This document shows, piece by piece, positions 5 through 11,008 of a DNA stretch of 59,978 nt. Position numbers and translations under genes: made by a program. The DNA is from a virus: positions 1 to 59,978 of IMG/VR virus record IMGVR_UViG_3300044950_001033. One strand, given 5' to 3'. Position 1 is the first letter of the stretch, and each line of letters starts with the position of its first letter. Under the pieces are notes generated by a model. The model did no database searches. It was not told the origin of the DNA and saw nothing but the letters and a program-made list of their open reading frames with translations.

Positions 5-1129
5 TTAAATTACATATATTTGACGAGGCATTGCTCTAAACTTCATTTGTTTGTTTAAGTTTTCTGCTATTAACGCTTCTCTTTCCATTACTTTATCGGG
101 TCTCATTCTTGTTAACCATCCTTCAGCTCCTGTTAATTCTTCTATTAATTTAGATTTTTCATCTTTGGCCTCGGTTAGTAAACTTTGGTAATCCATTACA
201 ATTTCAGAATCAGGTGTCTTTAAGTTCCCACTATATTTACCTCTAACTCTCGCCAAAGTTTCTTTACAATATGCTGTAAACCATCTTCTCACCCATTGTT
301 GACCAGGGACATTTAAGTCTTCCCAAGATAATTCTTCAATAGGTACATCTGTTGGTAATTTAATAATATCAGGATTATTTTTTAAACAATCGGCTCTACT
401 ATCAGGTTCAACATCATAGTACCAATACCATACGGCTTTACCCACGTATTGACTATAACTTGACCAATTAAATTTACCACCAGGGGTATTCATTAAGTGA
501 ATTAACTTTTTACCATCAGGTAATCCTGTTATTCTATATGTCATTGAACCACCTAATATTCTATTAAGAATATTTGCTTCTTGCATTCTAATTAAATAAT
601 CAAAACCTGACATCATAAAATAAGAACCTTGATTACCCATTTGAGCAAATCCTGCTTGGTCGGCACCTAAACCGATACCACCAAAACCACCACCCATACC
701 ACCTATTCCAAAGGCGGTCCAAGGTTGGTCACTAAACCATAGTAATTCGTTAACCTCTCTACCTGCGGGAATTTCGTATGTTTGAACATTCTTTTCAAGA
801 ACAAAATAATCTTTCTTTAAAACCCAAGGACCTTCAGTTTGAAGACCAACAATTTTAGAATAAGCATAACTGAACTGTTGTTCAAAATCCATAGTTCTTG
901 TGACTAAGGCTCTTGCAACTGACCTTTCGTTCATGTTTAAATTCACAAGATTAACCCATTGTGAATCAATTAACCATTGAAGAATATACTCTTCGTAATC
1001 CCCAAGGGCTAACTCCATTAATGAATCCATCATCTCATCTTCAAGTTCAACACTTCTTAGTGGTGCACCTAACTGATGTTTAATTCTTGTATAAATTTTA
1101 CTTCTTTCTGGTTCCGGTATTACTGCCAT
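5..1129 (-). CDS. Putative virion neck/head-completion protein (gp13-like?)
   Basis: This 374-residue protein is not recognised with certainty. Its middle carries a YEIPAGREVNE segment followed by LLWF, which recalls the beta-rich part of T4 gp13-type neck proteins that close the head before tail joining. A glycine-rich insert (about residues 143-170, GGMGGGFGGIG) and a mixed helical C-terminus follow. There is no signal peptide or membrane segment. A gp14-like candidate lies at 5244 and a gp15-like gene at 6473, which would fit a neck cluster, but this gene is on the opposite strand and is separated from them by the SOD/SNF2/SET cassette. The start is the ATG at 1129, just downstream (on the minus strand) of a TATTTAT element. 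A virion structural role is likely; the gp13 assignment is an inference. Confidence 0.45.
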   Translation of the reverse strand: MAVIPEPERSKIYTRIKHQLGAPLRSVELEDEMMDSLMELALGDYEEYILQWLIDSQWVNLVNLNMNERSVARALVTRTMDFEQQFSYAYSKIVGLQTEGPWVLKKDYFVLEKNVQTYEIPAGREVNELLWFSDQPWTAFGIGGMGGGFGGIGLGADQAGFAQMGNQGSYFMMSGFDYLIRMQEANILNRILGGSMTYRITGLPDGKKLIHLMNTPGGKFNWSSYSQYVGKAVWYWYYDVEPDSRADCLKNNPDIIKLPTDVPIEELSWEDLNVPGQQWVRRWFTAYCKETLARVRGKYSGNLKTPDSEIVMDYQSLLTEAKDEKSKLIEELTGAEGWLTRMRPDKVMEREALIAENLNKQMKFRAMPRQIYVI

Positions 1130-1133
1130 GTCA

Positions 1134-1140
1134 ATAAATA
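1134..1140 (-). promoter_or_regulatory. TATTTAT element before the 5-1129 gene
   Basis: On the minus strand this reads TATTTATTGAC directly before the ATG. It is one of about fourteen same-sense copies found just upstream of transcription units in this window. The promoter role is inferred. Confidence 0.35.
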
Positions 1141-1146
1141 TATTAG

Positions 1147-2685
1147 TTATTCTATTTCGTGAATTAATGATGAATCATTAAACACATATTGGTTATGGTT
1201 TTTTATTGGTTTATTATCAAAAATCAAAATTTTATTTGTTTTTGTATTAATAAATATCATCCAATCTACACTATATGGTTGAACATTACCAGTATCTTTA
1301 ACCGTAATTGTGTTGTTTTCTTTTGTGATTGAGGAATATGGTTTAACTTGTGTTCTATATCTTTTACCATTTAAAGTGATTGCCAAATCTTCCCCTTTAA
1401 ATGCGTCTATTTTTTGACCATGACCCCCAAGTTTTTCAAGTTTTGCAGAATCTCCAAAATATTTTTGGAATTTATCTAATACCTCATCTTCAGACTTTTG
1501 TCCTCTATCCCATAGTTTTTTTAATACTTTGATGATATTAATAAATTCTTCGTTATTTTTTGTGAATATTTTTGTTTTAAAATGATTTAACGCTTTAACC
1601 AATCGGTTAATTTCTGTAATTGTTCTGTTTTCTTTTTTAGAAAAATCAAATTTCTTTTCGGGTTTACCTAATTTCTCAATTTGAATATTGATTGCTCGGG
1701 TTAACAAACAAAATGTGTTGAAGTTTGTGTTTAAATTATTAAGGATTGACCTTCCTTCTTTAGACTCTAATCCGTAAAACCCTGACATTTCTTTATCAGT
1801 ACTCTCAACCCAAAATTGATGGAATACTTGTTTTAGTGAGTCAGTTACTCCGTCTTGATAAATTTTCTTAATTTTTGTATTGTTGATAAGTTCTCTGTAG
1901 AATTGAACTTCTTTGGCATCACAGAATTTTGCCTCTTTAGATTCGGTTATTAATTTCTCAAGTTTAACAGATTCCATTAGTTTTGTTTCTGTTTTCATTT
2001 CATATAATTTAGAAACAAAATCCCAATTTACAACTTTCCAAAAGTTTACAATATATTCATCTCTTTTGTTTCTATACTTTAGATAATAAGCGTGTTCCCA
2101 TAGGTCTAACCCTAAAAGTGGAAATCCACCACCTTCAATAACATTCATTAAAGGATTATCTTGATTTGGAGTTGACATAATCTTTAATGTGTTTTTAGCT
2201 GTGAGTACTAACCATACCCAACCTGAACCGAATCTATCTTTAGCAACAGTATCAAATTGTTTTTTGAAAGAGATAAAACTTCCAAATTGTTTTGTTATTT
2301 TTTTTAAAAGTTCCCCTTCTAATTTCTTAGGGGTCGGGGTTAACATGTTCCAAAATAATGCGTGGTTAAAGGCTCCACCGGCATTATTTCTAATTGTTTT
2401 ATCAAAACGACCTATTGTTTTAATAATTTGTTCTAACTCTAAGTCCCCGTATTTTTTCTTGGATAAAGCATCGTTTAGTTTATCTACATACCCTTTGTAA
2501 TGTTTGTTGTAGTGGAAGTTCATTGTTTCGGGGTCAATAAACTGTTTGAGGGCTGAATAGGAGTATGGTAATTTTTCTATTCCTATTTTTTTCATTTCGG
2601 TAATCAATAACTCTTTTTCTTTGGTGATGTGGTTTTCAAGTATTTGTGTTTCGAGTTGTTGAATTTTCTCTTCTATTTTTTTCAT
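1147..2685 (-). CDS. Mn-type superoxide dismutase fused to a PD-(D/E)XK-like C-terminal domain
   Basis: This 512-residue protein carries a complete Fe/Mn superoxide dismutase (superoxide to O2 and H2O2) at about residues 38-228. All four metal ligands are visible: H58 (FHYNKHY), H108 (FNHALFW), D194 and H198 (DLWEHAYY). Glycine in the NNAGGAFNH segment and glutamine in the PNQDNPLM segment match the manganese type. Normal SODs are about 200 residues long; here a 33-residue helical leader precedes the domain and about 280 residues follow it. The C-terminal part has a helical region, then GEDLAI (D433) and TQVK (Q446, K448), the spacing of a PD-(D/E)XK nuclease core with Gln in place of Glu. 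ITE tripeptides flank the SOD part (residues 28-30 and 246-248). The SOD call is firm; the nuclease call is tentative, and the pairing is unusual. Confidence 0.85.
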   Translation of the reverse strand: MKKIEEKIQQLETQILENHITKEKELLITEMKKIGIEKLPYSYSALKQFIDPETMNFHYNKHYKGYVDKLNDALSKKKYGDLELEQIIKTIGRFDKTIRNNAGGAFNHALFWNMLTPTPKKLEGELLKKITKQFGSFISFKKQFDTVAKDRFGSGWVWLVLTAKNTLKIMSTPNQDNPLMNVIEGGGFPLLGLDLWEHAYYLKYRNKRDEYIVNFWKVVNWDFVSKLYEMKTETKLMESVKLEKLITESKEAKFCDAKEVQFYRELINNTKIKKIYQDGVTDSLKQVFHQFWVESTDKEMSGFYGLESKEGRSILNNLNTNFNTFCLLTRAINIQIEKLGKPEKKFDFSKKENRTITEINRLVKALNHFKTKIFTKNNEEFINIIKVLKKLWDRGQKSEDEVLDKFQKYFGDSAKLEKLGGHGQKIDAFKGEDLAITLNGKRYRTQVKPYSSITKENNTITVKDTGNVQPYSVDWMIFINTKTNKILIFDNKPIKNHNQYVFNDSSLIHEIE

Positions 2686-2707
2686 ATAATTAGATTATTC
2701 ATTACAT

Positions 2708-2714
2708 ATAAATA
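2708..2714 (-). promoter_or_regulatory. TATTTAT element before the SOD-fusion gene
   Basis: On the minus strand TATTTATATG lies 22 bases upstream of the ATG at 2685, in the 42-base gap after the SNF2 gene. Its position matches that of the other copies. The promoter role is inferred. Confidence 0.35.
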
Positions 2715-2727
2715 ATCCAGTTTTTAT

Positions 2728-4482
2728 TTAATTACGCATTTGGTTAATTCGTTTCAAAATTTCTTCGGCAGCATCTGCGGTATTTTGATTATCACCCATC
2801 ACAGTTGCAATGACTTGTTTCTTGTTATTGAGTATGTCATAGATAATTCCTTCAATTGTATTTTCAAATATTGGGTAATAAACTAATACATTATTTTTTT
2901 GACCGTATCTATAACTTCTATCTTCAGCTTGAGCGTGGTCTGAAGGAAGAAACGATAAATCATTAAAGATTACCGCTTCGGCGGCGGTTAATGTAATACC
3001 AACACCAGCAGCTTTAATATTACCCACAAATACTTTTATTTTATCATTCTCTTGGAATTGGTCAACACTATATTGTTTTTCTGTTTTAGACATTGTCCCA
3101 TTAAGTTTAACAGCCATTTTTCCAAAATGTTCTGTTATTTTTTCTAATGAATCAGTAAAATTACAGAAGATAATAACTTTTTTACCTTGTTCAATAATGT
3201 TCTCGGCAAGTTCTATTGTTTGGGTGATTTTTTCATCAGCAATAACTTGTCGTATTTTTGTTAATTTAGTAAATTGAACCGTAAGTGATTTTGACTCTTC
3301 GGGGTTTTTATCATACCAATCATAATACTCACCCATAATTGCTTCATACATTTTAGATTTTAACCTAAGATATACAGGTGTGATAATTTTGTCGGGAAGG
3401 TTAAGGACATTTTCTTTGAGTCGTCTTAATGTAAGACCCGCAGTTCGGTCTCTTAATTCTTCAAGATTGGATGCTCCTGTTACATTCCATATTTTTCTAC
3501 CGCCAGCATTAAATTGATAACCTTGACAATATCTAATAGCGTATGCCATCCAATTCTTTGCAACGGGGGAATCAACTAAACTTAATAGATTAAAATAATC
3601 CATTGGTCTTGATGTCATTGGGGTACCTGTTAATAACCAAAGTCGGTCTACTTTTTTAACAAGGTCATTGATTAATTTTGTTCTTTGGGCGGTGGCGTTT
3701 TTAATGTAGTGGGCTTCATCAACAATTACTAAATCAAAATTAGAATCAAGAATTTGGGAGTTTTCTTTCTTTTTTGTGGTGTGAAAGTTTTTAATAATAT
3801 CGTAATTAATAATGACAAAATCCGCATCACCATTAAAATTTTTACCTTCTGAGATGTAGATAGATTTATCTGAATAATTTTCTATCTCTCTTTTCCAGTT
3901 AATCTTTAAAGTTGCGGGACAAATAATTAAAACTTTTTTAGAACCTGATTCTAATGCGGCAATGATTGTTGAGGTTGTTTTACCCAATCCCATATCATCG
4001 GCAAGAATAAACTTTTTGTTTTCTACTAATTTTTGGATTGATTCTTTTTGATGGTCAAGTGGTGGACGGTGAGAATATTTGTCGTAATTTATAACAACAT
4101 TTTTTACCGTATTATCTTTAATGATTGCCGCTTTTGGTAACCAAAAATCATGAAATTCTTGTGTCTCTGTTATTCTACCCCAAATGTGAAACGCTTTTTC
4201 TTTGTCTGCCAATAACTTTTCAACCCACACCCTTTCAGGTATTTCAGTCATAAGTTTATCATCCGCCAATTTTTGTGCAAAATAGGCATCAAGTATTACC
4301 CATTTTTTTGCAACCTTTGGTTGTTTGTCATGGTTATTAATTATGTATTCTGCCTGACTTCTTGTTGGATAAAATCTTCTATTTATTTGAGATTTTCTTT
4401 TAAGTTCAATAAGATAATTATTTCCCCCTTCGTAAGTCTCCAATAAGGTCATCGCCTTAGACTCTAAACTTGCTTCACTCAT
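2728..4482 (-). CDS. SNF2-family ATPase/helicase
   Basis: This 584-residue superfamily 2 protein has the SNF2 order of motifs. Walker A is DDMGLGKTT (about 162-170), motif Ia is ICPATLKINW (about 187-196), the Walker B box is DEAH (255-258) and motif III is LLTGTP (about 283-288). The second RecA-like lobe ends with a motif VI of the form QAEDRSYRYGQ. Such enzymes translocate on double-stranded DNA and remodel protein-DNA complexes. The first 140 residues are not recognised. T4 UvsW is also an SF2 enzyme, but the DDMGLGKT and RxxRxGQ signatures point to SNF2. The gene starts directly after the stop of the SET-domain gene, so the two are probably co-translated. Phage copies may act in replication-fork repair or against host DNA-bound proteins; the role here is unknown. 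Confidence 0.88.
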   Translation of the reverse strand: MSEASLESKAMTLLETYEGGNNYLIELKRKSQINRRFYPTRSQAEYIINNHDKQPKVAKKWVILDAYFAQKLADDKLMTEIPERVWVEKLLADKEKAFHIWGRITETQEFHDFWLPKAAIIKDNTVKNVVINYDKYSHRPPLDHQKESIQKLVENKKFILADDMGLGKTTSTIIAALESGSKKVLIICPATLKINWKREIENYSDKSIYISEGKNFNGDADFVIINYDIIKNFHTTKKKENSQILDSNFDLVIVDEAHYIKNATAQRTKLINDLVKKVDRLWLLTGTPMTSRPMDYFNLLSLVDSPVAKNWMAYAIRYCQGYQFNAGGRKIWNVTGASNLEELRDRTAGLTLRRLKENVLNLPDKIITPVYLRLKSKMYEAIMGEYYDWYDKNPEESKSLTVQFTKLTKIRQVIADEKITQTIELAENIIEQGKKVIIFCNFTDSLEKITEHFGKMAVKLNGTMSKTEKQYSVDQFQENDKIKVFVGNIKAAGVGITLTAAEAVIFNDLSFLPSDHAQAEDRSYRYGQKNNVLVYYPIFENTIEGIIYDILNNKKQVIATVMGDNQNTADAAEEILKRINQMRN

Positions 4483-4875
4483 TTAAGTAACATTAGTATG
4501 TGTCCTACCGTCGCTCCAATAACTCATATCACCATAATATGTGAAAATTTCTTCGTTAGGATTTATTTCTTTTATTGCGTAAAATTCAAAAGTGTTGTTT
4601 TCCAAATTTGACCTCCAACTTGAATTTGGGTTATCACTATGATTATACAACATTCCATAACCTGTAGGTATAACTTGTGATGTCCAATCATTTCCTTGAG
4701 GCCAATTATATCGGTAATCAATTAATATGTGACTAACTTCTTTATTCAACCCCATATCAATTACAGGACATATTTCAATGATTTCTCCTTCGTAAATTAT
4801 TTCATTTGCGAATACTCCTAACCCATGTATTGTGCTATGAGCGATGTAAATTTTATGTGGTGTTGGTATTTTCAT
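4483..4875 (-). CDS. SET-domain protein (possible lysine methyltransferase)
   Basis: This compact 130-residue protein is almost entirely a SET domain, the fold that moves a methyl group from S-adenosylmethionine to lysine. Visible motifs in order are the GLGVFA turn (18-23), the YNHSDNPN box (77-84; canonical NHSxxPN, AdoMet pocket and pseudoknot) and NEEIFTYYG (107-115), which supplies the tyrosine region of the active site. There are no pre-SET zinc cysteines and no added targeting domain, as in small bacterial and viral SET proteins. The gene is directly adjacent to the SNF2 gene and divergent from the small gene at 4922. The substrate is unknown; host nucleoid proteins, ribosomal proteins or a phage protein are all possible. 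The family call is firm, while activity is inferred. Confidence 0.82.
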   Translation of the reverse strand: MKIPTPHKIYIAHSTIHGLGVFANEIIYEGEIIEICPVIDMGLNKEVSHILIDYRYNWPQGNDWTSQVIPTGYGMLYNHSDNPNSSWRSNLENNTFEFYAIKEINPNEEIFTYYGDMSYWSDGRTHTNVT

Positions 4876-4908
4876 AAAAGATTACCTTAAATATAAGTAA
4901 TTATAATG

Positions 4909-4915
4909 TATTTAT
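4909..4915 (+). promoter_or_regulatory. TATTTAT element in the divergent 4876-4921 gap
   Basis: TATTTATCAA ends a few bases before the plus-strand ATG at 4922. The 46-base gap must also hold the minus-strand start signal for the SET gene; a weaker TATTTAA copy reads toward that gene. If this is a promoter, the transcript of the 4922 gene would be nearly leaderless. Confidence 0.35.
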
Positions 4916-4921
4916 CAATAT

Positions 4922-5243: not shown

Positions 5244-5756
5244 ATGCAGAAATTAGTTCCAATAACAAGATTAGGTAAATTCTTCGGAGGAGAAGATTAC
5301 ACCCTAGACATAGGTATGGGTGAAGAATGGTTATTGGGTGATATGAACTTCACAGTAGTTCTTTATCGTGTTGATAAATATAAGACAAAAACTGACGATG
5401 TCTACGGTGAGGTAACCGAAGATGGAATACAATTTATGGTACCTATTGAGTTAAAAGGTTTGGTTCAGGTAATGGCCCCTGCCCATAAATTTTTAGGTAA
5501 TTCTAAAGTGGAACAACAAGAACCTGGTAATATGAAGTTTTCTATTTATCAAAAAACTTTAGATGAGTTAGGTGTTGAAATATTCCTAGGGGATTATATT
5601 GGATATAATGAAACTGAAGATAGAATTAGATATTATGTGGTGAGTGATGATGGATATGTTAAGTCAGACAATAAACATACTTATGGTGGTTATAAACCAT
5701 TTTATAGAAGTATTATGGCCACTTACGTAAGTGAAAACGAATTTAGAGGGATATAA
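5244..5756 (+). CDS. Putative virion neck protein (gp14-like?)
   Basis: This 170-residue protein is beta-rich, with segments such as FTVVLYRVDKYKT, VYGEV and GDYIGY that loosely recall T4 gp14-type neck proteins. It sits one gene block before the gp15-like gene, the place expected for a neck component. It has no cysteines and no membrane segment. It starts at an ATG two bases after the previous stop, and its own TAA overlaps the next ATG by one base, so the group is translationally coupled. A virion role is an inference from position and general character; sequence support for gp14 itself is weak. Confidence 0.45.
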   Translation: MQKLVPITRLGKFFGGEDYTLDIGMGEEWLLGDMNFTVVLYRVDKYKTKTDDVYGEVTEDGIQFMVPIELKGLVQVMAPAHKFLGNSKVEQQEPGNMKFSIYQKTLDELGVEIFLGDYIGYNETEDRIRYYVVSDDGYVKSDNKHTYGGYKPFYRSIMATYVSENEFRGI

Positions 5757-6061
5757 TGAAATACATAATAACTGAAAATAGGTTAAATTCGATTATTGAA
5801 AATTGGTTAAATGAAAACTATAGTGATTTAGAAAGATATCATCGTACTGAATTTAGGGAAATTTATTTATCTAAAAATGGAAGGTTTAAATTCATGTATA
5901 ATTTAAGAACAAAACGATTATATGTTGTTAATGAAGTTTGGAGTTTTATTACAAATATGTTTGGTTTAGATTATGACGAGACGGAAAAAATTCTATTAAA
6001 TTGGTGTAGTAATAAATTTGGGTTTAGGATAAAAAACCTTGTTAAGGTAGATGAAATATGA
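5756..6061 (+). CDS. Hypothetical protein with N-terminal MKxxITE tag
   Basis: This 101-residue protein of unknown function starts MKYIITENRLNSII. The same pattern opens the next protein (MKILVTESQFDSIF), and the two align over about a dozen residues and then diverge completely. The rest is basic and aromatic-rich (FRIKNLVKV at the end), with no recognisable catalytic motif. Its start overlaps the previous stop by one base, preceded by GAGGG, one of the few purine-rich leaders in the window. Its own stop overlaps the next ATG by four bases. The shared N-terminus looks like a tag or targeting signal rather than a folded domain; this is inference. Confidence 0.65.
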   Translation: MKYIITENRLNSIIENWLNENYSDLERYHRTEFREIYLSKNGRFKFMYNLRTKRLYVVNEVWSFITNMFGLDYDETEKILLNWCSNKFGFRIKNLVKVDEI

Positions 6062-6471
6062 AAATATTAGTAACCGAATCTCAATTTGATTCCATCTTTA
6101 TAGGTAAAAAAGTTATGGTGTATTATAATTTACACAAACATACTTTTTCAGTTACATACGATAGTAAGGTAATATTACATTCAGACTATGTTAAGTTAGG
6201 GGATGTTGAATTTAGAGTTAGACCTGGTGGTAAGGATAGGGTTAGAAAAGAAAAAAGTAAAAATGTTCATGCTTTTGTTATTGGTACATTACTTGATTAT
6301 TGTGAGTATCCATGTGATGATATTCCAAATCCACCATCAGATATGATTGTCACCTATGACCCATACAAGTTTAACACATTTGTGTATAAAAATACTGAAG
6401 AACCTGTATATCAAGCAAAAGAAGTTGACATGATAAATTCAAAAAATAAACTATTTGTAGTTAAAAAATAA
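6058..6471 (+). CDS. Hypothetical protein with N-terminal MKxxVTE tag
   Basis: This 137-residue protein is of unknown function. It begins MKILVTESQFDSI, sharing the tag of the preceding protein. The body is beta-rich and basic (KDRVRKEKSKN at about 61-71) and contains a CEYPCDDIPNPP loop with two cysteines. There is no membrane segment. It overlaps the previous gene by four bases (ATGA) and is followed after one base by the gp15-like gene, so it belongs to the same co-translated group. No function is proposed. Confidence 0.65.
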   Translation: MKILVTESQFDSIFIGKKVMVYYNLHKHTFSVTYDSKVILHSDYVKLGDVEFRVRPGGKDRVRKEKSKNVHAFVIGTLLDYCEYPCDDIPNPPSDMIVTYDPYKFNTFVYKNTEEPVYQAKEVDMINSKNKLFVVKK

Positions 6472-7792: not shown

Positions 7793-10700
7793 ATGGCAAC
7801 AGCACAAGCAAATCAAAAAGTTTTTGTATCACCTGGAGTTTACACATCAGAAACGGACTTATCGTTCGTAGCACAAAGTGTAGGTGTTACTACCTTAGGT
7901 TTAGTAGGGGAAACAATAAAAGGACCTGCATTCGAACCTGTATTTATAACTAACTACGACGAGTTCCAAGCATATTTTGGAGGAACTGAACCTGTAAAAT
8001 TTGTAAACACACAAATACCAAAATATGAAGCGGCGTATATCGCCAAATCATACTTACAACAATCTAACCAATTGTTTGTAACAAGAATATTAGGATTATC
8101 AGGATATGACGCTGGTCCATCTTGGAGTATTAGAGTTACTGCCAATGTTGACCCGTTAACGATTGGTATAATTTCACCAACAGGAGGAACCGCTTTTTCG
8201 GCAACATTCACAGGATATTCTTCAGGAAGTACAATTCAATTTATTGGGGGAGCATTACCAACTCAAGTAAGTAATAACTATAATACTCTTTACAGATTAT
8301 CTGATGGTAGTACTTCAACATATGGTGAAGATTTCAATAGTAATTTAAGTTTTATTATTGATAATAATTCTTATTCCGCAACAACCGTTGCTATGTATGG
8401 TGCAATTCCTTCAGACCAATATTGGAGTCTTGTTAGTCAATATTCAAATCAATTAAATGTTTTTGGTTCAGACACAAATAATTTAGATACTAACGATTTA
8501 AGTTCAGACTCAAATGACCCATGGTATTACGCAGCGTTTACTAATGATGCAAATGTAAATAACGATTATGCTGGTTATTCATTTTATTATGATGTATCAT
8601 CATTAAGTACTAGTGATGGTGGTATCACTTATACAGGAACTATTACAGGAGAGTCATATAATTTTTCAGGAACTGCTTATAGTGAATATAATAATATGGT
8701 TGTTGGAACTTTGCGTTCAAGAGGTATTTCATTATATTCTAACAATGCAGACCTTGACCAACATGGACCTGTATATGAAGTGACAGGACTTACTGATGTT
8801 ACTTTAATTAGTACTGGACAATATTCAGGAATCACTAATTCACCATATGAAGGGTTTTTACTTTCAGGTATAACTAATGATAGTAATACGTTTTCTTTTG
8901 AAACTTCATTATCAGCGGCATCATCTAAATTTATTACTAAAGTTTTAGGCACAGATAATTTTGGTAAATCAAGATATGAAGTACCAATCTTTGTTGAAGA
9001 GTTATATCCAAGTTCTTTGAGTTATGCTTATAACCAAGGATATATTAAAGGTATTAATCCTCAATTAGTTGCTCTTGAAGATGCAAGAAGTGAAAACACA
9101 CAATCAATCGCGTATAAAGTTGAAAAATACCAATCACCTGAAACACCATTTTTGGTTTCTGAGTTAAGAGGTAATCAAGTTTATAAATTATTTAAATTTA
9201 TCTCAATCTCTGATGGAGACGCAGCGAATGTTGAGGTAAAAATTTCAATAGCTAACTTATCGTTTAATAACATGACATTTGATGTACTTGTTAGAAACTT
9301 CTTTGATACTGATGCAAATCCTGTTGTTATTGAGAAATTCACTAATTGTAATATGGACGCAGGTTCTAACAATTTCGTAGCGAAAAAAATTGGTAGTGCA
9401 AATGGGGAATACGCATTAATTTCAAAATTCGTTATGATTGAATTAGCGGAAGAATATCCTATAGACGCAATTCCTTGTGGATTCTACGGTTATACTCAGA
9501 GAGAATACGAATCAACTGAAAATATTTCACCAGTACCTAAATTCAAAACTAAATATTATTATCCAGGTGAGGTTGTTTTTAACCCCCCATTTGGAACAAC
9601 TGCAAATGCAACTGAATCAGCAGGTGATATTGTTAGAAGAACTTACTTAGGATTCTCAAGTCAATTTGGTATTGATGAAGCATTTTTATCTTATAAAGGT
9701 AAACAAAACCCACCAAACTGGGTTAGTTCAGCATTACCTATCGCAGGTCAAGCGTGGAATTACTTAAGTAGAGGTTTCCACATGGACTCAGGAGCAACTG
9801 TTGTTACAATTGCAAACTCATACCAAACAAGTGGGGCGACTGCTTTTGAATGTGGTGTAGCTGATTTTAGATTTGACCCTGAAACTCAAGAAAACCCATA
9901 CTACTTCATTTACTCAAGAAAATATACATTATGTTTTGCGGGAGGATTTGATGGTTGGGATGTTTATAGAGAATTTAGAACTAACCAAGATAGATTCCAA
10001 TTAGGAGCATCAGGTTACTTGGCAGGAGCATCGTCTTCTACAAGATACCCAACAGCAACAGGTCAAGGTTTATTTAAACGAATTGTGGTAAGTAATAACA
10101 CACAAGATTTTGCAAACACTGATTATTATGCATACTTACTTGGTATCTTAACATTCTCAAATCCTGAGGCAACAAATATTAACATATTTGCAACTTCAAG
10201 TATTGATTATGTTAACAACTCAAACCTTGTTGAAGAAACTATTGATATGGTACAATATTCAAGAGCTGACTCTGTGTATATCGCAACAACTCCTGATTAC
10301 TTAATGTACACTCCAGATGGAACTAACTCTTTAGATATCATCTACTCACAAGAAGCGGTTGATAACTTAGATAATACAGGAATTGACTCTAACTATACTG
10401 CAACTTACTATCCATGGATTTTAGTAAGAGATACTGTGAATAACACACAAATCTATTTACCACCAACAGGTGAAGTTGTAAGAAACTTGGCATTAACTGA
10501 TAACATTGCGTTCCCTTGGTTCGCATCTGCGGGTTACACAAGAGGTCTTGTAAACTCAATCAAAGCAAGAGTTAAATTGACTCAAGAAGATAGAGACACA
10601 CTTTACCAAGGTAGAATTAACCCAATTGCTACTTTTGCGGATGTAGGTACTGTAATTTGGGGTAACAAAACATTACAAATTGCTGATTCAGCACTTAACA

Positions 10701-11008
10701 GATTGAACGTAAGAAGATTATTACTTCAAGCTCGTAAGTTGATTTCAGCGGTGGCAGTAAGATTATTGTTTGAACAAAACGACCAAATCGTTAGACAACA
10801 ATTCTTAGATAGTGTTAACCCAATCTTAGACTCAATTAGAAGAGACAGAGGTTTATATGATTTCCGTGTAACAGTTTCTTCAACACCTGAAGACTTAGAT
10901 AGAAATACATTAGTAGGGAAAATCTATTTAAAACCTACGAAGGCGTTAGAGTTCATTGATATTGAATTCTTCATTACTCCAACAGGAGCTTCGTTCGAGA
11001 ATATTTAA
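7793..11008 (+). CDS. Contractile tail sheath protein (gp18-like)
   Basis: This 1071-residue protein forms the outer contractile tube of the tail. The N-terminus (VFVSPGVYTSETDLS, then GLVGETIKGPAFEP) is the typical start of myovirus sheath proteins. The C-terminal 200 residues (RLLLQARKLI, then FRVTVSSTPEDLDRNTL and LEFIDIEFFITPTG) form the conserved domain that links neighbouring subunits. T4 gp18 is 659 residues; the extra length lies in the middle (about 130-480), a Ser/Thr/Asn-rich stretch probably exposed on the tail surface as inserted domains. The gene opens an operon after a 130-base regulatory gap. The tube gene follows two genes later. Confidence 0.93.
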   Translation: MATAQANQKVFVSPGVYTSETDLSFVAQSVGVTTLGLVGETIKGPAFEPVFITNYDEFQAYFGGTEPVKFVNTQIPKYEAAYIAKSYLQQSNQLFVTRILGLSGYDAGPSWSIRVTANVDPLTIGIISPTGGTAFSATFTGYSSGSTIQFIGGALPTQVSNNYNTLYRLSDGSTSTYGEDFNSNLSFIIDNNSYSATTVAMYGAIPSDQYWSLVSQYSNQLNVFGSDTNNLDTNDLSSDSNDPWYYAAFTNDANVNNDYAGYSFYYDVSSLSTSDGGITYTGTITGESYNFSGTAYSEYNNMVVGTLRSRGISLYSNNADLDQHGPVYEVTGLTDVTLISTGQYSGITNSPYEGFLLSGITNDSNTFSFETSLSAASSKFITKVLGTDNFGKSRYEVPIFVEELYPSSLSYAYNQGYIKGINPQLVALEDARSENTQSIAYKVEKYQSPETPFLVSELRGNQVYKLFKFISISDGDAANVEVKISIANLSFNNMTFDVLVRNFFDTDANPVVIEKFTNCNMDAGSNNFVAKKIGSANGEYALISKFVMIELAEEYPIDAIPCGFYGYTQREYESTENISPVPKFKTKYYYPGEVVFNPPFGTTANATESAGDIVRRTYLGFSSQFGIDEAFLSYKGKQNPPNWVSSALPIAGQAWNYLSRGFHMDSGATVVTIANSYQTSGATAFECGVADFRFDPETQENPYYFIYSRKYTLCFAGGFDGWDVYREFRTNQDRFQLGASGYLAGASSSTRYPTATGQGLFKRIVVSNNTQDFANTDYYAYLLGILTFSNPEATNINIFATSSIDYVNNSNLVEETIDMVQYSRADSVYIATTPDYLMYTPDGTNSLDIIYSQEAVDNLDNTGIDSNYTATYYPWILVRDTVNNTQIYLPPTGEVVRNLALTDNIAFPWFASAGYTRGLVNSIKARVKLTQEDRDTLYQGRINPIATFADVGTVIWGNKTLQIADSALNRLNVRRLLLQARKLISAVAVRLLFEQNDQIVRQQFLDSVNPILDSIRRDRGLYDFRVTVSSTPEDLDRNTLVGKIYLKPTKALEFIDIEFFITPTGASFENI

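Follow-up and report, generated by a model that had tools for sequence, protein, structure and literature searches.

A superoxide dismutase-nuclease fusion with two exchanged alleles of its predicted nuclease half, possibly a head-internal protein of large T4-like phages

The virus record IMGVR_UViG_3300044950_001033 of IMG/VR, analysed here in its entirety (59,978 bases, "the window"), carries on its minus strand a gene for a protein that joins a predicted superoxide dismutase (SOD) to a predicted PD-(D/E)xK-type nuclease. This SOD-nuclease is tentatively read as a head-internal virion protein of large T4-like phages, set apart from the SET and SNF2 genes beside it, matured by a protease and bearing an exchangeable nuclease; we hold this to be possible rather than probable. 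The reading builds on the fusion itself, its invariant active-site residues and predicted fold, two alleles of the C-terminal half and their exchange, promoter-like motifs distinct from those of SET and SNF2, a prohead protease gene in the relatives, and candidate cleavage sites of the form x-E.

A preliminary description had presented positions 1147-4875 as a minus-strand cassette of three genes, SET, SNF2 and SOD-nuclease, between a possible neck gene and plus-strand neck/tail genes. The layout is as described: three complete open reading frames (ORFs) lie at exactly these coordinates, Pfam recovers the SOD, SNF2 and SET domains, predicted fold and invariant residues support the nuclease, the SET stop codon directly abuts the ATG of SNF2, and profile matches place a head-tail adaptor gene on one side and the tail sheath gene on the other (Table 1). 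That the three genes are unrelated to virion assembly is doubtful: for the SOD-nuclease it is probably incorrect.

The viral-contig scan with the SOD-nuclease flagged at least 598 stretches. In the best 80 of them, to which its results refer, residues 1-512 or 9-512 are matched, and SNF2 and neck genes are matched alongside in 80/80. Three more scans, with SET, an alignment of the nuclease half and a divergent member as queries, added loci; one virus may occur in several records of this sample. Both halves of the fusion are present in 175/175 complete loci (123 distinct proteins, 508-512 amino acids (aa)), these being the loci gathered before the divergent-member scan and all fetched by likeness to the fusion, the nuclease half or SET. 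Among the loci found with these queries no SOD-less or free-standing version was seen within the lineage, and 10/10 records contain one nuclease match each. Because the loci are relatives of one lineage, shared gene order says little on function. Residue counts below refer to a set of 136 distinct proteins, each longer than 480 aa and with a Met start that could be recovered.

The SOD half matches Pfam Sod_Fe_N (77.8 bits, cut-off 27) and Sod_Fe_C (135.8 bits, cut-off 20.9) over residues 36-226, and H58, H108, Q175, G192, D194 and H198 are each present in 136/136 proteins. Metal ligands are assigned by a motif that we take over from E. coli SOD. The roles of the XD-2 residue and of the C-terminal Gln are treated in the consulted part of PMC10172142, according to which Gln together with Gly goes with Mn-preferring SodFM1. 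By these residues the domain is predicted to be an Fe/Mn superoxide dismutase, SodFM1-like and of Mn type. When the full-length model, of low confidence in its SOD part, is compared by VIA-align, all 50 rows are SODs or SOD-like plastid RNA polymerase subunits, with Z up to 14.9. SODs of other large phages (PA5oct group, Vibrio phage 2.275.O) share the SOD fold at 28-30% identity; unlike the fusion, the SOD gene of Vibrio phage 2.275.O is annotated with 570 nucleotides (nt), too few to include a nuclease half.

The nuclease part of the window protein has no match in Pfam at E 1. Folded alone with 64 sequences, the C-terminal half reaches a mean predicted local distance difference test (pLDDT) of 88.1. 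Its last ~125 residues align by VIA-align with SPARDA (Z 8.9, root-mean-square deviation (rmsd) 4.3, 114 aligned), Hjc (Z 8.7, rmsd 2.9, 101 aligned), I-Ssp6803I (Z 8.6, rmsd 4.1, 109 aligned) and NhoI (Z 8.6, rmsd 2.7, 98 aligned), four structural matches that are tied. Foldseek with the predicted model places I-Ssp6803I at the top (E 1.3e-3) and returns nothing at or below 1e-3. E399, D433, Q446 and K448, a pattern E..D..QxK, are invariant (136/136), and their equivalents are kept in two free-standing relatives. By predicted fold and invariant residues the C-terminal half is a putative PD-(D/E)xK-type nuclease. SPARDA DREN, a domain similar to I-Ssp6803I, relies on D and Q-x-K and shows activity as a tetramer but none as a monomer (PMC12205087, in part); a multimeric SOD could therefore be a scaffold for the nuclease. 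The phage domain shares with I-Ssp6803I and DREN the fold of the last ~125 residues, and with DREN also D and Q-x-K, but identity is 11-15%, the phage domain is joined to a helical region and the SOD, and its activity is a prediction.

In the viral structure database BFVD the best match of the C-terminal half is A0A6J5L953 (501 aa, TMq 0.80, 29% identity), which UniProt lists as "superoxide dismutase [uncultured Caudovirales phage]", naming the SOD only. Name and length indicate that the same fusion is probably already in the public database. Second among the viral matches comes a marine phage protein of 1,113 aa. Weak profile matches of the nuclease half are DUF6602 (29/64, best E 8e-4) and MC4 of ABC-3C (17/64, 5e-5) in Pfam, and PHROG 5018 (21/64, best 5.6e-5), and a sequence search of PDB with the nuclease profile gives nothing below E 0.35. 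The C-terminal half of window type has no match in GenBank phages at E 10; a query of the second allele type (below) finds LR756501/LR756503 (E 2e-4), LR745206 (3e-4) and weak Mycobacterium phage matches (0.8). No relatives of the LR756501 nuclease were confirmed among 15 pattern matches in viral contigs. Among the papers listed in searches on the topic, neither titles nor abstract openings name a SOD-nuclease fusion.

In LR745206.1 (L276 4503-6675) the free-standing nuclease relative shares 8 nt with the end of a 474-aa frame. Read by eye, this frame resembles the C-terminal region of a family B DNA polymerase; the polymerase gene may therefore be split there.

The C-terminal half occurs in two allele types. 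Between types (58 type I and 7 type II proteins compared) its identity is 37% (33-41%) and that of the SOD 88%; within types the C-terminal halves average 69% and 64% identity. A later count gives 58 type I and 65 type II among the 123 distinct proteins. On a tree of SNF2, SOD and neck (FastTree; 109 distinct rows with long matches of all three, the rest dropped) the allele type changes at least 6 times, with 5 changes forced by starred branches, and each allele is held over wide clades. Four pairs of different type were compared by nucleotide (L069/L190, L052/L191, L009/L142, L014/L142): flanks are mostly 80-95% identical and drop to ~38-68% from ORF nucleotide ~721 to the stop. The exchanged tract begins at ~codon 240, and its borders are sharp in the DNA. 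L050/L157 show the same drop, but here the DNA upstream of the gene differs as well; the same-type pair L069/L054 has no such drop, but its C-terminal half is lower (62-82%). The C-terminal half has thus been swapped at least 5-6 times between close relatives. It evolves faster than the SOD, and neither half is lost.

The motif TATTTAT is present within 45 nt upstream of the SOD-nuclease in 87/90 distinct sequences (2.4 expected, as all expectations here from single-base shuffles), of the neck gene in 89/89 (5.5 expected) and of the sheath gene in 45/46 (2.5 expected). Upstream of SNF2 it is found in 4/87 (4.7 expected) and of SET in 1/33 (3.1 expected); 42 of the 87 SNF2 regions belong to SET-bearing loci and consist of SET coding sequence, and the SET-less loci have the motif in 3/45. 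On the SET/SNF2 side of the strand switch, 40/41 SET-less slots possess TTG, 17-21 nt and TATATTT. In four of four head regions TATTTAT stands within the 60 nt upstream of the prohead protease gene, of a gene of 231-235 aa and of the putative scaffold gene, an acidic ORF next to the capsid gene; the capsid gene itself and a 143-146-aa gene of these regions lack it. Within the window 12/38 genes have it within 60 nt, including sheath, tube, neck and several large late-type genes, and also an ssb-like gene. Inside coding frames its frequency is 0.015 per 60 nt. By this motif the SOD-nuclease looks like a member of the virion-gene class. Both TATTTAT and the TTG/TATATTT element are presumably promoters, and the virion-type motif would point to late expression of the SOD-nuclease. 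In many of the relatives compared, the TATTTAT in the spacer before the SOD-nuclease (window 2686-2727) lies, by eye, within an imperfect inverted repeat (TGGATTAT...ATAATCCA), possibly an operator.

An S77 (gp21-type) protease exceeds its cut-off in 7/8 relatives. A gp23-type capsid protein is likewise present in 7/8, with I-N-E followed by A at residues 58-61 in 7/7. T4 gp21 cleaves after L/I-x-E; of the T4 capsid-targeting sequence, positions 4 and 7 serve in targeting, 8 and 10 in processing (PMC9026906, in part). The leader of the SOD-nuclease ends with E30 in 136/136 and has I (128) or L (8) at residue 28. Both linker glutamates, E238 and E248, are present in 136/136, followed by S in 122 and by G/S/A in 125 of the 136, respectively, and preceded two residues upstream by I or L apart from a few proteins mentioned below; their neighbours otherwise vary. 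Strict sites, x-E followed by a small residue, number two in the SOD-nuclease, both in the linker, against a single one over the 2,591 columns of six further proteins from the region. The leader may be a propeptide, with cleavage at the x-E sites of leader and linker. The free-standing nuclease of LR745206, a 634-kb phage, begins MKKFTEYIKE followed by SS; positions 4 and 7 are aromatic, 8 is Ile and 10 is Glu, and no other N-terminus of this kind occurs among 239 ORFs examined (the LR745206 piece and others). These four positions fit those of the T4 targeting sequence, which is aromatic at 4 and 7. The SOD-nuclease resembles the internal proteins of T4 (IPI-III, Alt), and other ejection proteins processed in the prohead, in a leader ending L/I-x-E, in the gp21-type protease encoded by the relatives and in a gene position beside virion genes. 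The SOD-nuclease, whose packaging is proposed here, differs in its longer leader without T4-type targeting residues and in having sites also between domains. We know of no T4 internal protein that is a SOD or a PD-(D/E)xK nuclease.

Several observations weigh against a packaged and processed SOD-nuclease. The S77 gene is absent from the 60-kb window record, and in the LR745206 and LR756501 phages S77 matches remain under the cut-off. L/I-x-E is short and common; the strict site rule was framed with the linker already known, and conserved [ILM]-x-E regardless of the next residue is not enriched in the SOD-nuclease (3/506 columns vs 13/2,591). In one relative, L/I-x-E-like motifs are as frequent at N-termini as further in (19/148 vs 19/148 ORFs). 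The residue after E30 is Met in 136/136, not small as at the linker sites, and residue 246 is Met instead of I/L in 8/136. The window leader, MKKIEEKIQQ, lacks aromatic residues at 4 and 7, and the other free-standing nuclease relative, that of the 735-kb phage LR756501, has no leader of the MKKFTEYIKE type. TATTTAT is no exact virion-gene marker, being absent at the capsid gene and present at the ssb-like gene. In 221/240 loci no more than 200 nt separate SNF2 from the SOD-nuclease, so that joint transcription is possible.

The SNF2 protein matches Pfam SNF2-rel_dom (99.9 bits) and Helicase_C (61.1 bits), and its residues 83-565 match the phage helicase family PHROG 62 (E 1.3e-116); relatives are found in 2,043 phage records. 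It is perhaps a UvsW-like translocase, as Snf2/Swi2 helicases are proposed stand-ins for UvsW in some jumbo phage groups (survey PMC7824862, in part). Its PADLOC matches include ZorD (E 3.3e-46), DpdE and DrmD (1.7e-33), the last being the example from DISARM that the preliminary description gives for SNF2 ATPases in anti-phage systems. It scores far below the NCBIfam cut-offs for DrmD (93.3 vs 950 and 84.2 vs 610 bits), by which DISARM membership is rejected. Zorya and Dpd are rejected too: the PADLOC matches span the shared ATPase region, and SNF2 scores far below the cut-offs of all 11 NCBIfam families listed. SOD-nuclease, SET and neck have no PADLOC match at E 0.01.

The SET protein reaches 51.5 bits in Pfam (cut-off 22.4), and N78, H79, S80 and Y114, presumably the NHS and C-terminal Tyr motifs, are invariant in 12 sequences. 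Its closest solved structures are Plasmodium SET7-type proteins (2.8e-15, 6.2e-14) and PBCV-1 vSET (E 9.4e-9); the latter is listed as a histone H3 lysine methyltransferase, whereas the phage protein has no known histone substrate. It is a predicted methyltransferase, with lysine methyl transfer expected from family membership.

Among 93 distinct slots SET is present in 46 and absent in 47 (L102 is counted among the latter although tblastn shows SET there); SNF2 and SOD-nuclease are retained in either case. Loci L082-L113 entered the sample through a SET query, which inflates the fraction of slots with SET. The tree requires at least 16 changes between SET present and SET absent (scored in 108 of the 109 rows, truncated SETs as present). 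L009-L013, close relatives of the window (SNF2 90-91%), carry SET at 39-40% identity, and L087 (SNF2 85%) at 89%; SET has therefore been exchanged too. A search of eight larger records of relatives finds no SET at E 0.01 in six, a truncated SET in G006 and a weak match elsewhere in G004. Since the SET stop abuts the SNF2 start, the two are probably co-transcribed. Patchy SET and separate promoter-like motifs tell against a single cassette of the three genes, a reading that we reject by the refuting conditions that the preliminary description itself had set. Of the co-occurrence that the preliminary description had proposed to look for in related phages, SNF2 with SOD-nuclease is borne out and SET is found in about half of the sampled slots. 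SNF2 with its optional SET appears to be a separate, differently regulated unit upstream of the SOD-nuclease.

A tandem pair of diverged SETs occupies one slot in L072 (5418-6202) and L097 (8001-8770). L288 (G006:C1:52427-52552) holds a SET remnant of 42 positions in a 68-aa frame, ~2 kb upstream of the SOD-nuclease, as if decaying. In LR756501.1 (L209 4023-5363), an unrelated 735-kb phage, a SET relative (48%) and the free-standing nuclease relative are divergent neighbours, ~70 bp apart by their ATG starts; the record has no SOD match. This neighbourhood partly favours a link between SET and nuclease.

Taken as a virion protein, the SOD-nuclease would be made as a precursor of a 30-residue leader, Mn-type SOD, short linker and PD-(D/E)xK-type nuclease, which a gp21-like protease would cut in the prohead at conserved L/I-x-E-like sites, both behind the leader and within the linker. 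The head would then carry SOD and nuclease, and these would reach the cell together with the DNA. The SOD may clear superoxide near packaged or incoming DNA, or gather nuclease units before cleavage; the nuclease may cut host DNA or that of competing phages, and such conflict could maintain two diverged nuclease alleles, swapped as a cassette. A more specific form, in which a head-carried two-enzyme precursor, its nuclease swapped like a polymorphic toxin, destroys the DNA of the host or of a rival upon injection, the dismutase protecting that of the phage, we consider somewhat unlikely. If the packaging reading is true, a single cleavable protein brings both a reactive-oxygen enzyme and an exchangeable nuclease into the phage head, phage ejection proteins are joined with polymorphic, allele-swapped effectors, and x-E sites followed by small residues in variable linkers, together with a virion-type motif, become a handle for packaged effectors in uncultured phages. 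Even in a weaker reading, a fusion constant in its SOD and exchangeable in its nuclease needs explaining, and at least one public record names the SOD only.

The main rival takes the C-terminal half for a homing or exclusion endonuclease fused to a phage SOD, which spreads between co-infecting phages by cutting the other allele or nearby DNA; the exchanged tract would be a trace of gene conversion and the SOD merely the host gene. The PD-(D/E)xK homing enzyme I-Ssp6803I among the fold matches, the stand-alone domain in two other phages, one of them overlapping the polymerase-like frame, and tract borders that coincide with the nuclease-half domain all fit, and phage nuclease genes at exchange borders and domain swapping have been reported (PMC10448857, in part). 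However, the 175 complete loci, all fetched by likeness to the fusion, nuclease half or SET, contain no empty allele, there is one copy per record in 10/10, each allele is held over wide clades, and the faster-evolving nuclease half is never lost, nor is the SOD. We hold this rival to be unlikely; it could be combined with packaging. A recombination unit, in which SNF2 would perform UvsW-like branch migration, the nuclease Hjc-like resolution, and the SOD protect or dimerise the nuclease, would agree with Hjc among the tied structures, with the proposed replacement of UvsW by Snf2/Swi2 in jumbo phages (PMC7824862, in part), and with SNF2 and SOD-nuclease being matched together in all of the best 80 loci and mostly lying within 200 nt. 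We judge it quite improbable: the gap exceeds 200 nt in 19/240 loci, the two genes differ in promoter-like motifs, the virion-type motif would indicate late expression, and a core resolvase is hardly expected as two alleles 37% identical among close relatives.

An auxiliary SOD that shields the infected cell from superoxide late in infection, its C-terminal half minor or unrelated, accords with the invariance of the checked SOD positions and with SODs in other large phages (e.g. Vibrio phage 2.275.O), but leaves unexplained why the nuclease half is retained with its active-site residues in all loci seen; it is very doubtful. Joint action of SET, SNF2 and SOD-nuclease on complexes resembling chromatin, or in defence or counter-defence, is highly improbable. 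One strand for all three genes, SET abutting SNF2, the neighbourhood in LR756501 and the PADLOC matches of SNF2 to ZorD and DrmD speak for it; against it are the absence of SET from about half of the sampled slots, the separate promoter-like motifs, SNF2 scores under the cut-off of each NCBIfam family listed, and the lack of PADLOC matches for the other proteins.

The lineage is probably one of large T4-like phages whose host phylum, from weak signs, is probably Bacteroidota. Two contigs of relatives, of 317 and 326 kb (L041, L048), make plain that these genomes are large. The host assignment follows from four signs: the 7 phage records matched by the neck protein (a Microcystis phage at the top, followed by four phages of Flavobacterium and two of Stenotrophomonas), a Fluviicola metagenome-assembled genome as best bacterial SOD match (50%; genome-contig scan, 13 loci), SodFM1-type residues, SodFM1 being the main SodFM type in Bacteroidota (PMC10172142, in part), and a promoter-like element near the Bacteroidetes consensus TTTG/TANNTTTG but without its final G (consensus from PMC6847099, in part). 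The 13 bacterial loci match in the SOD part only; the patterns were saturated and came from the SOD end, which leaves the absence of a bacterial donor of the nuclease half unproven.

Table 1. Features of the window and the basis of their assignment
Feature	Coordinates	Strand	Basis and remarks
SOD-nuclease fusion gene	1147..2685	-	512 aa; complete ORF, Pfam, 136 distinct relatives aligned
N-terminal leader, residues 1-30, ending I28-T29-E30	2596..2685	-	alignment of 136
Fe/Mn superoxide dismutase domain, residues 31-235, predicted Mn type	1981..2595	-	Pfam and invariant residues
Linker, residues 236-249	1939..1980	-	two conserved sites, x-E before a small residue
Linker sites L/I236-x-E238 before S239, L/I/M246-x-E248 before G/S/A249	within 1939..1980	-	alignment
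C-terminal half, residues 250-512: helical region and predicted PD-(D/E)xK-type nuclease domain	1150..1938	-	predicted fold, E399/D433/Q446/K448
Predicted PD-(D/E)xK-type nuclease domain, ~residues 388-512	1150-1524	-	predicted fold
Tract exchanged between allele types I and II	1147..1965	-	ORF nucleotides ~721 to stop
SNF2-family helicase/translocase gene	2728..4482	-	584 aa; complete ORF, Pfam, PHROG 62
SET-domain protein gene (lysine methyltransferase family)	4483..4875	-	130 aa; complete ORF, Pfam; patchy among relatives
Head-tail adaptor (neck) gene	5..1129	-	downstream neighbour of SOD-nuclease; PHROG 211, E 2.3e-10
Tail sheath gene	7793-11008	+	Pfam and PHROG profile matches
TATTTAT promoter-like motif upstream of SOD-nuclease	2708..2714	-	87/90 distinct upstream regions
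TATTTAT promoter-like motif upstream of neck gene	1134..1140	-	89/89
Promoter-like element facing SET/SNF2 (TTG, spacer, TATATTT)	4888..4918	-	40/41 SET-less slots
TATTTAT promoter-like motif facing plus-strand genes	4909..4915	+	same strand in 41/41 SET-less slots

Two small proteins with ITEN/VTES-type starts (MKYIITENR, MKILVTESQ) are encoded at window positions 5756-6471, and like starts are found elsewhere in one relative.

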